A stretch of 64,000 nucleotides of DNA. It comes from Microgenomates group bacterium. GTDB lineage: Bacteria; Patescibacteriota; Microgenomatia; UBA1406; GWC2-37-13. The notes beneath the pieces are model-generated. The model saw nothing but the letters and a program-made list of their open reading frames with translations, was not told the origin of the DNA and ran no database searches. Below, one piece after another: positions 25,461 to 37,298 of this stretch; position 1 is the stretch's first letter; every line of letters begins with the position of its first letter. The stretch lies in NCBI GenBank assembly GCA_029906985.1, contig JARYMT010000003.1, forward strand, positions 78,058 through 142,057, given 5' to 3'. A program made the position numbers and the translations under genes.

Positions 25461-25493
25461 TAAACCATTCCCCTTTATTAAGGGAATGGTTTA
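25461..25493. terminator. Bidirectional intrinsic terminator
   Basis: A perfect 12-bp inverted repeat (TAAACCATTCCC, 9-base loop, GGGAATGGTTTA) lies between the convergent DUF5679 and thpR genes. It is followed by TTTT-like bases on the plus strand and an AT-rich run on the minus strand. The stop codon of thpR lies in one arm. Confidence 0.85.
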
Positions 25494-26030
25494 TTTTATG
25501 TCAATCAAAGGGAATTGATCGAGTTTTTTATAGACAGGTCTGCCAGTGGCTAAAATACTTTGATATAAAACAACTTTTTTTACGGGAAATTCTATCTCAA
25601 TATTCAGTTTGTTTAATTTTTTTCTTAAATGAAAATATTGCTGTTTTGAAGGAATTCGACAACGGGCCAATGTTAAATGAGGAATAAATTTCTTTTCCGA
25701 AACAAAGTTCAAACTTTTTTTGATTTTTTCCACCAAATTTTCTAATTTCTTTTCCCGGTTAAAGCCTAAATAAATGACTATTTTACTATTCATAAATAAA
25801 TCTACTTTTTGAGAATATAAATAAAATTTTTCCTGATCATAAAGAGCATCTTTAATTTTTTTGGCAATCGATTGATATTCTTTTCTCTCGCCTATAAAAA
25901 CTAATGTTAAGTGAAAATTATCAGTCTCTACCCAGTGATAATCTTGATACTCCAATTGAATTTTTTTTAAACTCTCGGTAATTTGTTGTTTAATTTTTTT
26001 CGGCAGTTCGATGGCTAAGAAAAGTCGCAT
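25491..26030 (-). CDS. thpR: RNA 2',3'-cyclic phosphodiesterase (ThpR/LigT family)
   Basis: Opens 2',3'-cyclic phosphates on RNA ends. The start MRLFLAIELPKKI is typical of the family and is preferred to one 21 codons upstream. The two catalytic HxTx motifs are HLTLVFIG near residue 42 and HLTLARCR near 122; 179 residues is the family's usual length. The 5' end overlaps the preceding nucleotidyltransferase gene by 41 bases. Together with RtcB and archease at 54-56 kb it hints at active RNA end repair. Confidence 0.9.
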   Translation of the reverse strand: MRLFLAIELPKKIKQQITESLKKIQLEYQDYHWVETDNFHLTLVFIGERKEYQSIAKKIKDALYDQEKFYLYSQKVDLFMNSKIVIYLGFNREKKLENLVEKIKKSLNFVSEKKFIPHLTLARCRIPSKQQYFHLRKKLNKLNIEIEFPVKKVVLYQSILATGRPVYKKLDQFPLIDIK

Positions 26031-33044: not shown

Positions 33045-34028
33045 ATGTCTACAACTTTGCTTATCGTTTTAATCCTCTTTTTTATTTCTCTTCTTATCAT
33101 TCGACTTTGGCTTAACCAGCTTGAAGAAAAAGGCCGGGTATCAAATGAACTAATCGAATGGCTTAAGGAATTGGGCCGACGGGTGGAAAATTCGACCCAA
33201 GCAGTTGACCAAAAATTAACTAAAAATATGGAGATGTTTAATAGTCGTTTGGACAAAGCCGCCTATGTCATCGCTCAAGTGCAAAAAACTATTGGTGAAT
33301 TTGCGGAAATCGGCCGGTCAATGAACGAACTCCAACAATTTTTAACTTCTCCAAAACTGCGCGGCAATATTGGCGAACAAGTGTTAAAAGAGCTTTTAAG
33401 CCAATATTTTCCCCAGGATTCTTACCGTTTACAATATCTTTTTAGCAATGGAGAGAAAGTCGATGCAGTCATCAAAACCACCCAAGGCCTTATCCCGATC
33501 GACGCCAAATTCCCGATGGAAAACTTTCGAAAACTGAGTCAAACTACCGATGAAAAAACCAGAGAAAAAGTCAAAAAAAACTTTATTGACGATGTAAAAA
33601 AACATATCCAAGATATTGCCAAAAAATATATTCTGGTTGAACAGAGAACGGTAGACTATGCTTTAATGTATGTCCCTTCCGAGGCGGTTTATTATGAAAT
33701 TATTAACGAGGCAGAGCTTTTTGATTTTGCCGGCCAAAAAAGAGTCCTCCCTGTTTCGCCAATGAGTTTTTATGCTTATATGAAAGCAATTCTAATGTCT
33801 TTTGAAGGCCAAAAAATTCAGACAAAAGCTAAAGAAATTCTCGCTATTTTGCGGGCGATTAAAAAAGATTATCAAAAAACTGAAGAGGCTTTTTCAGTGA
33901 TGATCAAACATTTGACCAATGCTTATAACCAAGGAAGTCAAGTAGGGAAAAATTTAAATAATTTAGGCCAAAAATTATCATCAACTGATCTTTTGCCCCA
34001 GGAAACAGAGAAAAAATTACTGCAATGA
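33045..34028 (+). CDS. rmuC: DNA recombination protein RmuC
   Basis: 327 residues: an N-terminal membrane helix (about 3-22), a coiled-coil region (about 30-95), then the RmuC nuclease-like domain (LTSPKLRGNIGEQVLKELLSQYFPQDSYRLQY, VDAVIKTTQGLIPIDAKFPMENF, VEQRTVDYALMYVPSEAVYYEI). RmuC limits rearrangement at inverted repeats and may cleave DNA structures. The start was chosen at the ATG 6 bases after a TATAAT. Its stop overlaps recJ by ATGA. Confidence 0.92.
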   Translation: MSTTLLIVLILFFISLLIIRLWLNQLEEKGRVSNELIEWLKELGRRVENSTQAVDQKLTKNMEMFNSRLDKAAYVIAQVQKTIGEFAEIGRSMNELQQFLTSPKLRGNIGEQVLKELLSQYFPQDSYRLQYLFSNGEKVDAVIKTTQGLIPIDAKFPMENFRKLSQTTDEKTREKVKKNFIDDVKKHIQDIAKKYILVEQRTVDYALMYVPSEAVYYEIINEAELFDFAGQKRVLPVSPMSFYAYMKAILMSFEGQKIQTKAKEILAILRAIKKDYQKTEEAFSVMIKHLTNAYNQGSQVGKNLNNLGQKLSSTDLLPQETEKKLLQ

Positions 34029-35821
34029 AAATAAATTTTTTAAGACAAATCCAACCGGAAGAAACAATCTCTTATGAAAAATTAATTAATCTCCTTCTTA
34101 AAAATCGAAAAATTAAAAAAGTCAATGAATTTCTTAATCCCAAAAATCCTTTAGATATTTCTTTAACTGATTTTGGTTTTAAAAAAGAATTTAAAAAAAT
34201 TTGCCAAATTCTGGAAAATCTAAAAAAAGAGAAAAAAATGATTGTCGTCTATACCGACTATGATGCTGACGGTATTACCGGAGGAGCGATTTTGTGGGAA
34301 ACTCTTTATCTTTTGGGTTTTAAAGTTATGCCTTATGTCCCCCACCGGAAAAACGAAGGCTATGGTTTTTCCAAAATCGGCCTTAATAATGTTAAAAAAA
34401 TTTATAATCCTGATCTGATTATCAGCGTTGATCACGGCATTACCGGTGAAGAGAAAATCAAATATGCTAAATCCCTCGGAATAAAAATTATTGTCACTGA
34501 TCATCATTTGAAGCCAAAAAAAGCACCTCAATCTGCTTTGGCGGTCTTCCATATTCCCGAACTGTCAGGCGCCGGCGTCGCTTATTTTTTTGCCAAGGAA
34601 ATTTTTGATTATTTTTCCAAAGATTTGAGTAATAATAATTTTAAAGGAAAAAAAGAGCAAAAAAATAATCAAAATTCAGCAATTAAAAAAAAATTGGAAA
34701 ATTATTTTGCCACCGATTATTTGGCCCTTGCCTCGATTGGGACAGTAGCTGATCTGGTGCCTTTAATCGGAGCTTCCCGCTCGATAGTCAAATACGGACT
34801 GGCTTCTTTTCAAAAAGTAAAAAGATATGGAATAAAACACATTTTAAAAGAAGCTAGAATTGACAACCGACCGATTACTCCTTATGAAATCGGTTTTATG
34901 ATTGCTCCTCGGATTAACGCCGTCGGTCGGCTGGAACATGCTTTGGATGCTTTAAGACTTCTCTGTACCACTGATGAAAAAAGAGCCTCTAATTTAGCAT
35001 CAATCATTGGCACTAAAAATCGAGAGCGTCAGGATTTAGTGGAAAAATCTCTGGATGAAGCGATTAAAAGTCTAAAGTCAAATATTAATCAATTAAAATT
35101 AATTATTCTGATATCTGATAAATGGCATGAGGGAATCATCGGCTTAATTGCCTCAAAAATTGCCGAAAAATTTTACCGGCCAACGATCGTCATCACCAAA
35201 GTTGATGGTTTTTATAAGGGTTCGGCCCGCTCGATTCCTAATTTAGATATCACTAAATTTTTAAGGGAATTGAAAAAATATTTAATCGACATCGGCGGCC
35301 ATAAACAAGCGGCCGGATTTTCTCTTGAGGAAAAAAATATCAAAGAATTTGTCAAACAGGCAGAAAAAAAAGCTGACAAAGAATTAAAAGAAAAAGACTT
35401 AGAAAAAAAAATTACTGTTGATTTCATGATTCCGATAGCTGGATTAACCCTTGAATTAGCAAAACTAATTGAAAAACTAGAACCTTTTGGCATTGGTAAT
35501 CCCCGACCAACCTTTTACAGCCGGGCAGAAGTGGTTGACGCCAAAGTCTTTGGTAATAAAAATGAACATCTGAAGATCTTTGTAAGAAATCCTATCATTT
35601 ATTCTTCAGGTAATTCTGGCGAGCCATCGGGCAATTCAAGAAGCTCTTTTAATTCTCGACAAGCTCGAACAATAAATGGGCTTGAATTAATATCATTTTA
35701 CGCTGCTGACCAATTTCCCACCCTCTCCAGAGGCCAAATAATCGATGTCGTCTATACCCTCGAAATCGACCGATGGGAAGGAAAAGAAAAAGTAAGGGGA
35801 AAAATAATGTTAATTTTTTAA
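34025..35821 (+). CDS. recJ: Single-stranded-DNA exonuclease RecJ
   Basis: 5'-3' ssDNA exonuclease used in repair. 598 residues with the DHH core: VVYTDYDADGITGGAILWE near residue 80 (DxDxDG), SVDHGITG near 138, VTDHHLKP near 158 (DHH), and IGTVADLVPL near 240. The DHHA1 domain follows with GGHKQAAGFSLEE near 425, then the OB-like C-terminus. An additional Lys/Asn-rich segment sits near 200-225. It overlaps rmuC by ATGA and, tail to tail, the next gene by 4 bases. Confidence 0.93.
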   Translation: MKINFLRQIQPEETISYEKLINLLLKNRKIKKVNEFLNPKNPLDISLTDFGFKKEFKKICQILENLKKEKKMIVVYTDYDADGITGGAILWETLYLLGFKVMPYVPHRKNEGYGFSKIGLNNVKKIYNPDLIISVDHGITGEEKIKYAKSLGIKIIVTDHHLKPKKAPQSALAVFHIPELSGAGVAYFFAKEIFDYFSKDLSNNNFKGKKEQKNNQNSAIKKKLENYFATDYLALASIGTVADLVPLIGASRSIVKYGLASFQKVKRYGIKHILKEARIDNRPITPYEIGFMIAPRINAVGRLEHALDALRLLCTTDEKRASNLASIIGTKNRERQDLVEKSLDEAIKSLKSNINQLKLIILISDKWHEGIIGLIASKIAEKFYRPTIVITKVDGFYKGSARSIPNLDITKFLRELKKYLIDIGGHKQAAGFSLEEKNIKEFVKQAEKKADKELKEKDLEKKITVDFMIPIAGLTLELAKLIEKLEPFGIGNPRPTFYSRAEVVDAKVFGNKNEHLKIFVRNPIIYSSGNSGEPSGNSRSSFNSRQARTINGLELISFYAADQFPTLSRGQIIDVVYTLEIDRWEGKEKVRGKIMLIF

Positions 35822-37116
35822 TCGTTACCAACATTATTTAATAAAATTAAATTTTGAGTTGTAGCATCTAATTTAGCTTTTATATATGGTGTTACATCTC
35901 CATATAATTCTGGAGGAAATAATAAATGTGCAGTTCTTAAAAGCCTTCTTATTTCATATAAAGCATGGGCCTGACCGTCCCCTTCTTTTCCTGTATGATA
36001 AAGATGATCTAAATATTGTCTTAAACTCATAAATACAAATTCTATTTGTGGTCGTTTTTTTTCTTCCTTTTTTGTTCTGTTATCTCTAAGCTCAATCTGT
36101 CTTCTTTTCAGTTTTAATTGTGGATGTTGTCTTCTTTTATCTCCAACCCAATCATCTGGTTTTGAATCTACTATTGAGAAATCTCCCAAATTCAAACGGC
36201 CAATATTTAAATCAAAATAAGAAATCAAATCTTTTATGTTGCCTTCGATTACTACTATCCTAAATCCAACTAAATCTGCAATAGGTGAAAGATTTACCCC
36301 GTCATCTAATGCGGCTGCATTTTCAAGCGCTTTTAATACCGTTTGTGAATCCCCTTTTCGCCTCATCTCTATAACACATGTAAAGCGCCTTCCATAAATG
36401 TTAAATTGCCGGGCAGTTAATTTCGTTATTTTAATAGTTAATTCTCCATTAATTAAATTTTTTGGATCAATTTGTTCTCCCCTTATACGCATGACTTCAT
36501 TTTTGTCACCATGAGTAGAATATATAGTCAATGGTAAATATGGTGCATTAAAAGTATCTATTCCTAATAATTTCATAAATTCATAGTAAAAAACACCTTT
36601 TAGATGTTCGGAGCGTAGACTTTCATTTCTTAAATGATTCTGCCAAGAAACAAATCCTAAGAGATGACGTAAAATCATCTGGTGCCTCAATTGAGGATTG
36701 ATATGAGGAGCTGTCATCATTCTCAAACTATCTGTAGGAGATTCACTATAAATTAACGCTTCGTTAAAAAAACCAAATTGATCCGGCGGCAATCCCAAAG
36801 TCGAAATGGCAGAATTAACTACCTCAACAGCTCTTTTTTGACATTCTATATATTCAGCGGAGCCGAAAATATGTTCATCTCCCAAGATCCTACGGGCATT
36901 TTCAAAAAAATAACGATCTAACTCTGGTTTAATTTTATCCCAATCTTCTTGAGAATACAAACCTCTAAGGTTTTTTATCGCTGCTTTGAGGCCTTGTGGA
37001 CCATAAAATTGTTGTATTAACCTAAAAGGATTGAGTCTGGGTTTCTCAGAAAAATTATCGGCTAAACCAATTGGTTTAAAATCTTTGGGATAAATTACTA
37101 CTGATCTGCCTTCCAT
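35818..37116 (-). CDS. Unknown 432-residue protein with weak RelA/SpoT-like stretches, behind a structured leader
   Basis: I do not recognise this family. Residues 1-235 are helical and basic with no clear motif. Residues about 235-285 (RRFTCVIEMRRKGD, then LSPIADLVGFRIVV) faintly recall the strand-loop of RelA/SpoT-type synthetases (RxxDLxGxRI), and IEFVFMSLRQYLDHLYHTGKEGDGQAH could be the later VEVQIRT-like strand. This is a weak resemblance only. The ATG follows an intrinsic-terminator U-tract directly, with no ribosome-binding site, and the 145 bases before it are a folded leader with a short peptide (separate entries). The 3' end overlaps recJ by 4 bases. Confidence 0.6.
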   Translation of the reverse strand: MEGRSVVIYPKDFKPIGLADNFSEKPRLNPFRLIQQFYGPQGLKAAIKNLRGLYSQEDWDKIKPELDRYFFENARRILGDEHIFGSAEYIECQKRAVEVVNSAISTLGLPPDQFGFFNEALIYSESPTDSLRMMTAPHINPQLRHQMILRHLLGFVSWQNHLRNESLRSEHLKGVFYYEFMKLLGIDTFNAPYLPLTIYSTHGDKNEVMRIRGEQIDPKNLINGELTIKITKLTARQFNIYGRRFTCVIEMRRKGDSQTVLKALENAAALDDGVNLSPIADLVGFRIVVIEGNIKDLISYFDLNIGRLNLGDFSIVDSKPDDWVGDKRRQHPQLKLKRRQIELRDNRTKKEEKKRPQIEFVFMSLRQYLDHLYHTGKEGDGQAHALYEIRRLLRTAHLLFPPELYGDVTPYIKAKLDATTQNLILLNNVGND

Positions 37117-37140
37117 AAAAAAAACCCGCCGGGGCGGGGT
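37117..37140 (-). terminator. Intrinsic terminator immediately before the unknown 432-residue gene
   Basis: On the minus strand a short, very GC-rich stem (CCCGC/GCGGG) is followed by eight T, which run straight into the ATG at 37116. Part of the stem can instead pair with GCGGGGT at 37187-37181, so the terminator is mutually exclusive with an upstream pairing. Confidence 0.75.
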
Positions 37141-37188
37141 AATTTTATAATTTAAAAAATCAGTCTAAACAATAGGTTTCACCCCGCT

Positions 37189-37260
37189 TCAGACACACTG
37201 CCATTTAAGGCAGTTCCTGATATAGGGATGAATAAACTGTTGTAATCGTCTGATTATCAT
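37189..37260 (-). CDS. Possible 23-residue leader peptide
   Basis: An ATG 9 bases after a TATAAT opens a short frame (MIIRRLQQFIHPYIRNCLKW plus three residues) that ends just before the GCGGGGT element of the leader. Translation through it would break the TTCATCCC/GGGGTGAA stem and could free the antiterminator. The spacing to the -10 box fits the leaderless genes of this genome. It may be chance: codon content shows no run of one regulatory amino acid. Confidence 0.35.
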   Translation of the reverse strand: MIIRRLQQFIHPYIRNCLKWQCV

Positions 37261-37269
37261 AGTTTGACT

Positions 37270-37298
37270 ATTATAACTAAGACTAACTAATTAATCAA
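37270..37298 (-). promoter_or_regulatory. Promoter of the structured leader
   Basis: On the minus strand TTGATT (37298-37293) and a perfect TATAAT (37275-37270) are separated by exactly 17 bases. Transcription would start near 37263 and run leftward through the leader into the 432-residue gene. Confidence 0.6.

Follow-up and report, generated by a model that had tools for sequence, protein, structure and literature searches.

Transcription attenuators of the trp/his/thr/pheST type, described from Proteobacteria and Actinobacteria (PMC1262725), combine a leader peptide with the alternative RNA pairings A:B, B:C, and C:D, an intrinsic terminator, and antitermination when the ribosome stalls. 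The leader element analyzed here has the same layout, with antitermination on stalling as a predicted property. Likewise, the drug-inducible attenuators of the erm and vga/lmr type possess a leader ORF and a terminator/antiterminator pair and respond to a general block of elongation, a sensitivity that is also predicted for our locus. The attenuation mechanism itself is classical. We use the name attenuator for how the element works, since sensor codons are usual in biosynthetic attenuators but not in all of them.

Almost nothing is known about gene regulation and starvation sensing in Patescibacteria. According to a review published in 2024, the mechanisms behind cell-state differentiation in this group are "completely unknown"; neither attenuation nor the stringent response is mentioned in it (PMC11665869). 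In the open-access literature searched, we found no report of attenuators or leader peptides in Patescibacteria, of a stringent response in these bacteria, or of attenuation of an alarmone synthetase. Here, we analyzed a stretch of 64,000 nucleotides from a bacterium of the class Microgenomatia, the whole of which is referred to as the window. Taken together, the computational evidence makes it highly probable that the window contains a ribosome-mediated transcription attenuator and that the gene under its control encodes a divergent protein of the RelA/SpoT fold, similar to alarmone synthetases.

Architecture and predicted switching of the leader

The element occupies positions 37298-37117 of the minus strand and ends at the start codon of a gene for a 432-residue protein. 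A sequence-only reading of this DNA had proposed that a promoter of the form TTGATT-N17-TATAAT opens a 147-base leader, and a consensus scan located this promoter at 37270..37298, minus strand, with 10/12 matches (-35 box, 37298-37293; -10 box, 37275-37270). The same reading had pointed to a 23-codon frame starting 9 bases from the -10 box and ending just before the switch element. We recovered this leader-peptide ORF, encoding MIIRRLQQFIHPYIRNCLKWQCV, at 37189..37260 on the minus strand; its ATG at 37260, 9 nt past the -10 box, renders it nearly leaderless, and its stop codon is TGA (37191-37189). Near-leaderless leader ORFs are also found in Actinobacteria and in Sinorhizobium trpL.

The three mutually exclusive pairings that had been noticed in the sequence, including the CCCGC/GCGGG terminator, are all present on the minus strand and fold above chance. 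Strand A (TTCATCCC, 37225..37232) pairs with GGGGTGAA in the A:B stem of the minimum free energy (MFE) fold. An inner hairpin, TCAG..ACTGCC / GGCAGT..CTGA (37189..37220), which appears in the MFE and the centroid fold, is stacked within the A:B stem and lies inside the leader ORF. Strand B (AGCGGGGTGAA, 37178..37188), the 5' strand of the antiterminator and of the B:C duplex, begins one base past the leader stop codon. Strand C (ATTACCCCGC, 37134..37143) is common to the antiterminator (B:C) and the terminator (C:D): in the antiterminator core, GCGGGGT at 37187-37181 pairs with ACCCCGC at 37140-37134, and strand C overlaps the 5' arm of the terminator by 5 nt. The intrinsic terminator hairpin CCCGC-CCCG-GCGGG (37125..37138; -7.8 kcal/mol) is followed by a U-run, T8 (37117..37124), directly after which comes the ATG of the 432-residue gene at 37116. 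The B:C antiterminator is mutually exclusive with the C:D terminator, and the A:B protector stem is mutually exclusive with B:C. It had been observed that the U-run abuts the start codon and leaves no room for a ribosome-binding site, which is correct. This arrangement recurs in related loci, with the U-run extending into the start codon in several other related leaders, so that leaderless or Shine-Dalgarno-independent initiation seems normal here.

The leader folds with a z score of -3.96, and 0 of 200 shuffled sequences were equally stable; its MFE fold holds A:B around the inner hairpin, plus the terminator. For the B:C duplex, we obtained -16.6 kcal/mol, versus a mean of -7.6 kcal/mol for dinucleotide shuffles (p=0.001). 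Strong terminator-like hairpins are rare, the leader terminator being one of two detected by scanning the 64-kb window. The other one, AAACCATTCCC/GGGAATGGTTT at 25465-25510 on the plus strand, also runs into an ATG, and no antiterminator match was found upstream of it.

In the proposed mechanism, RNA polymerase would start about 7 nt past the -10 box, placing the leader AUG almost at the 5' end of the transcript. In the ribosome-free state, A would pair with B, the C:D terminator would form, and transcription would stop. A ribosome translating smoothly to the leader stop would cover B, and C:D would form again. With the stop codon one base from B, a ribosome completing the leader peptide would sit on this strand, and this spacing is part of the attenuator mechanism. 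A ribosome stalled inside the leader, because charged tRNA is scarce or elongation is blocked in some other way, would instead cover A and leave B to pair with C; this pairing would block C:D, and the polymerase would read into the 432-residue gene. We infer that the leader is translated and that termination and antitermination operate in this way in cells.

To simulate stalling, the ribosome was placed on each codon and only the downstream RNA was folded (equilibrium partition function), the RNA behind the ribosome being ignored. The window leader displayed three energetic states in these computations. Its terminator probability was 0.99 without a ribosome, at most 0.07 with a stall at any of 15 consecutive codons, QQFIHPYIRNCLKWQ, and 0.85-0.99 with the ribosome at the last two codons, C and V, or at the stop codon, for which it was 0.99. 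Variation of the ribosome edge from 7 to 13 nt moved the outcome by just one or two codons. Three-state logic arose in 8 of 400 shuffled window leaders and a 15-codon responsive zone in 1 of 400. As a positive control, the leader of a thrS gene gave a terminator probability of 0.90 before its Thr codons, 0.74, 0.14, 0.03, and 0.03 at the four consecutive Thr codons, and 0.42 and then 0.91 past them. According to this model, the window element is a classical attenuator in its logic, with an unusually wide responsive zone.

Conservation before homologous genes

Homologues of the 432-residue protein were found in 15 of the 373 genomes of the class that were searched, and more of them in one family; searches of GTDB species genomes and viral contigs returned no close homologues. 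Besides the window, the layout of promoter, short ORF, B, C, D, U-run, and start codon precedes ten divergent homologues (G059, G045, G095, G343, G368, G323, G299, G328, G263, and G172), spread over at least four families of the class. The leader-bearing homologues are 17-23% identical to the window protein. Among the ten leaders, the sequences differ and the pairings persist. The antiterminator pair is GGTTGACTTGT/ACAAGTCAACC in G045, GGGAGGAT/ATCCTCCC in G095, AGCGGTTC/GAACCGCT in G299, and GTTTGAG/CTCAAGC in both G343 and G328. When the upstream strand was subjected to dinucleotide shuffling, 8 of the 11 leaders, counting that of the window, had a significant B:C (p<=0.004), and the Fisher combined value was 3e-14; in this test B:C was not significant in G368 and G263, and G323 gave p=0.097. 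The antiterminator strand shares nucleotides with the terminator arm in every leader, 5-11 nt of them in the ten homologous ones. Conservation of the stems in relatives, which the sequence-only reading had named as a point to check, supports it, and comparison of the sequences indicates that changes on one strand of the B:C antiterminator are compensated on the other across the homologous leaders. The leader is not obligatory for the gene, since seven further homologues (G023, G201, G210, G257, G390, G216, and G401) have no such leader.

The stall simulation gave a clear result for the homologous leaders of G343 and G172 and a partial one for others. In G172, only stalls at C-Y-R flipped the switch. 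Antitermination was predicted throughout in G299, and equilibrium folding did not predict ribosome-free termination in G299, G328, and G045.

A strongly folding leader in which stems exclude one another and a terminator precedes a gene without assigned function would also be expected of a metabolite-binding riboswitch of a class not yet known, in which case the short ORF would be accidental. We regard this explanation as very improbable. No Rfam family matched the leader at gathering score, in agreement with the earlier remark that no known riboswitch class was recognized in it, and with gathering and permissive thresholds the Rfam covariance models returned only weak, terminator-driven matches to small RNAs. 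The homologous leaders share no element outside the pairings and no conserved unpaired motif, the pairing logic alone being kept. Moreover, each of the 10 leaders tested contains an ORF that is 15 or more codons long and stops no further than 30 nt from B, whereas shuffled sequences lead one to expect about 0.24-0.42 for each leader, and the sister elements described below carry codon runs matched to their genes.

The sequence-only reading had also offered a stand-alone small RNA. Such an RNA would end at the terminator, and the 432-residue gene would be expressed from elsewhere or by passive readthrough. A strong promoter and a terminator do delimit a unit of about 147 nt, and the weak Rfam matches, none of them significant, were to small-RNA families. 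However, in ten divergent homologues from no fewer than four families, the element has a wholly different sequence and yet keeps its position before the same gene. The terminator directly adjoins the ATG of the 432-residue gene, and the antiterminator pairings would have no purpose in such an RNA. A separate small RNA is likewise very improbable.

Several related leaders deviate from the basic layout or stand before other genes. In family f5, the leaders L047, L048, L049, L050, L051, and L062 possess an extra hairpin between B and C, e.g., CCCTAAAAGGGAATAATC, and a second terminator-like hairpin, ATCCCTCAGGGGATTTGTTTTTT, ahead of the leader ORF; these leaders may hold an additional layer of regulation. 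On the opposite strand of the upstream region in G338, a paralogous leader (L063) encodes LFVTEEWFE* with the same B, C, and D strands and precedes the gene arranged divergently to the RelA-like homologue of that genome. In G020, a leader encoding MKINNIYSRIIFLFTAYRRR* (L012), with B and C nearly as in the RelA-like leader of G059, precedes an unrelated ORF of at least 115 codons to which no family was assigned.

Sister elements and the candidate signal

Searching DNA with the leader and with a pattern that combines a terminator and an ATG, we identified sister elements in the class, including the following. The thrS leader, MKLNFVTTTTNLS, contains a TTTT run. Two leaders before a DAHP-synthase-like gene read ..WFYFYFIF.. 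and ..WFYFNFFF.., the hisS leader reads ..SHHSPDPDGG.. (HH), and those of two aromatic amino acid lyases (PF00221) contain ..VHH... A SAM hydroxide adenosyltransferase (SAM hydrolase, SAM-HAT) is preceded by ..KQMMMDNALRRG with MMM, a serB-serA fusion by the Ser-rich ..NNYSPQSCSSFRSGG, an Asp/Glu racemase by ..SHHYSPS, and a radical SAM gene by ..SHWYYYSI. Matching of residue to gene in nine cases, a set picked after the data had been seen, gave a permutation p of 1e-4. Of 29 leaders whose promoter was acceptable, 16 have their ATG no more than 12 nt from the -10 box. The proposal that ribosome movement could be the signal draws support from these gene-matched codon runs, as it does from conservation among the homologues and from the stall simulation.

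A wider set of predicted Microgenomatia attenuators includes L098, L095, L096, L007, L004, L002, L037, L038, L088, L079, L089, L070, L084, and L097; many of them are near-leaderless, and their codon runs correspond to the gene that follows. The window's genome contains a second attenuator-like leader (L094, G000:C8:11579-11611); its peptide, MFQTFLIISFLILFFAIMAGE, is hydrophobic and rich in Phe and Ile, and a methyltransferase-like gene follows. An exact B-C-D pattern run over 281 genomes of the class was too strict, yielding 3 matches, two of which were informative His leaders. Over 333 genomes of the phylum, the terminator-ATG pattern detected mostly ordinary gene-end terminators outside the class, where leader logic was not apparent; this pattern alone is therefore no evidence of an attenuator. 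Inside the class, L077, L081, and L082 were discarded as attenuators because they are greA 3' terminators. An Arg-to-argH match is weak, as the simulation places SSS, not RR, in the responsive zone.

Which signal might the window leader read? Its peptide contains no run of one codon, and the downstream product has no known amino acid specificity. An ordinary attenuator specific for one residue, with Cys, Trp, or Arg as candidates, would agree with the enrichment of these residues in the ten leader peptides: Trp occurs 9 times versus 1.7 expected (p 6.5e-5), Cys 6 times versus 1.2, and Arg 22 times versus 13.7. In addition, the window peptide has two Cys codons, a residue accounting for 11 of 4,088 codons in 11 neighboring genes, and the G172 switch responds at C-Y-R only. 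Given the enrichment of Trp and Cys, the actual signal may come from amino acids that are scarce. However, no residue at responsive positions is common to all peptides, and the Trp codons are frequently located in strand B, a G-rich segment in which the structure forces them. We consider a one-residue sensor unlikely on balance, and no single sensed amino acid is established from the ten peptides. As the responsive zone encodes twelve different amino acids, it suggests a monitor of general stalling, and the window leader may respond to starvation or to stalling in general, and not to any one amino acid.

A wide responsive zone without a single-codon run would suit any elongation block, including that assumed for an antibiotic- or nascent-peptide-arrest-type attenuator (erm/vga-type), in which a drug or the peptide itself, and not tRNA shortage, stalls the ribosome; the ending TEEWFE, common to the peptides of one family, could be read likewise. 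Such an arrest is improbable, considering that the product resembles a nucleotidyltransferase rather than a resistance factor, that the sister elements are clearly amino acid sensors, and that the peptides differ too strongly from one genome to another to contain a conserved arrest sequence.

The regulated gene in relation to known systems

The regulated gene (35818..37116, minus strand) is located between recJ (34025-35821) and aspS (37347 onward, other strand); the closest aspS genes are those of Candidatus Roizmanbacteria (74%) and of Woesebacteria and Gottesmanbacteria (71%), which places the window in Microgenomatia. From its fold and residues, the 432-residue product is classified as a divergent RelA/SpoT-fold nucleotidyltransferase-like protein. 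No Pfam (including PF04607), NCBIfam, or PADLOC profile matched it, and a sequence search of the PDB returned no match. We therefore call it RelA/SpoT-fold-like and not a member of the family. An AlphaFold2 model built with 16 homologues (pLDDT 84.9; pTM 0.84) had as its PDB fold matches 1-31 exclusively small alarmone synthetases, GTP pyrophosphokinase family proteins, or CapRel. The best E value was 9.9e-4 and the TM scores were at most 0.45, so that the fold match is significant but distant. In the 16 homologues, R236, K254, K262, D281, and E359 are invariant and R252 is conserved in at least 90%; these residues fit the R-x-K-x7-K...D...E pattern of RSH synthetases. An hhalign profile-profile alignment to canonical RSH, of low probability (6.8%) although its E value was 0.005, placed R252, K254, K262, and D281 in register with the invariant residues R238, K240, K248, and D263.

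The canonical RelA_SpoT domain is absent from the window's genome and present in 4 of 47 relatives. In one of the four (G073, L066), the canonical RelA/SpoT gene is flanked by recJ and aspS, on the opposite strand there; this is the slot taken in the window by the RelA/SpoT-fold-like gene.

RelQ/SAS1, RelP/SAS2, CapRel, and RSH proteins (PF04607) thus constitute the nearest PDB fold of the window product, whose family retains the RSH residue pattern invariantly or nearly so, the first four positions being in register. In contrast to RelA-SpoT homologues, the product carries about 180 additional, helical residues at its N terminus, and it shares 13% identity with them. Judged by nearest fold, it is probably a distant relative of alarmone synthetases; alarmone synthesis is putative, and the protein may make or sense an alarmone.

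It is conceivable, and we put it forward tentatively as something short of an even prospect, that some Patescibacteria, which mostly lack a canonical RelA/SpoT, couple stalling at many codons to a divergent alarmone synthetase by attenuation, in place of the ribosome-bound sensing of RelA, and that the window element is one of a wider, undescribed set in the class. If this is true, a stall-reading switch before an alarmone-synthetase-like gene would represent a different wiring of the stringent response. Amino acid attenuators in epibiotic Patescibacteria would reveal what these bacteria sense from their hosts.

Unlike the drug-inducible attenuators of the erm and vga/lmr type, the window element precedes a gene that no search identified as a resistance gene, and its peptide bears no conserved arrest motif. 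Compared with the attenuators of the trp/his/thr/pheST type, it occurs in Microgenomatia, its U-run touches the start codon of the gene, and its leader is devoid of a codon run and has a predicted responsive zone of 15 codons; in place of a biosynthetic operon, it would control an alarmone-synthetase-like gene.
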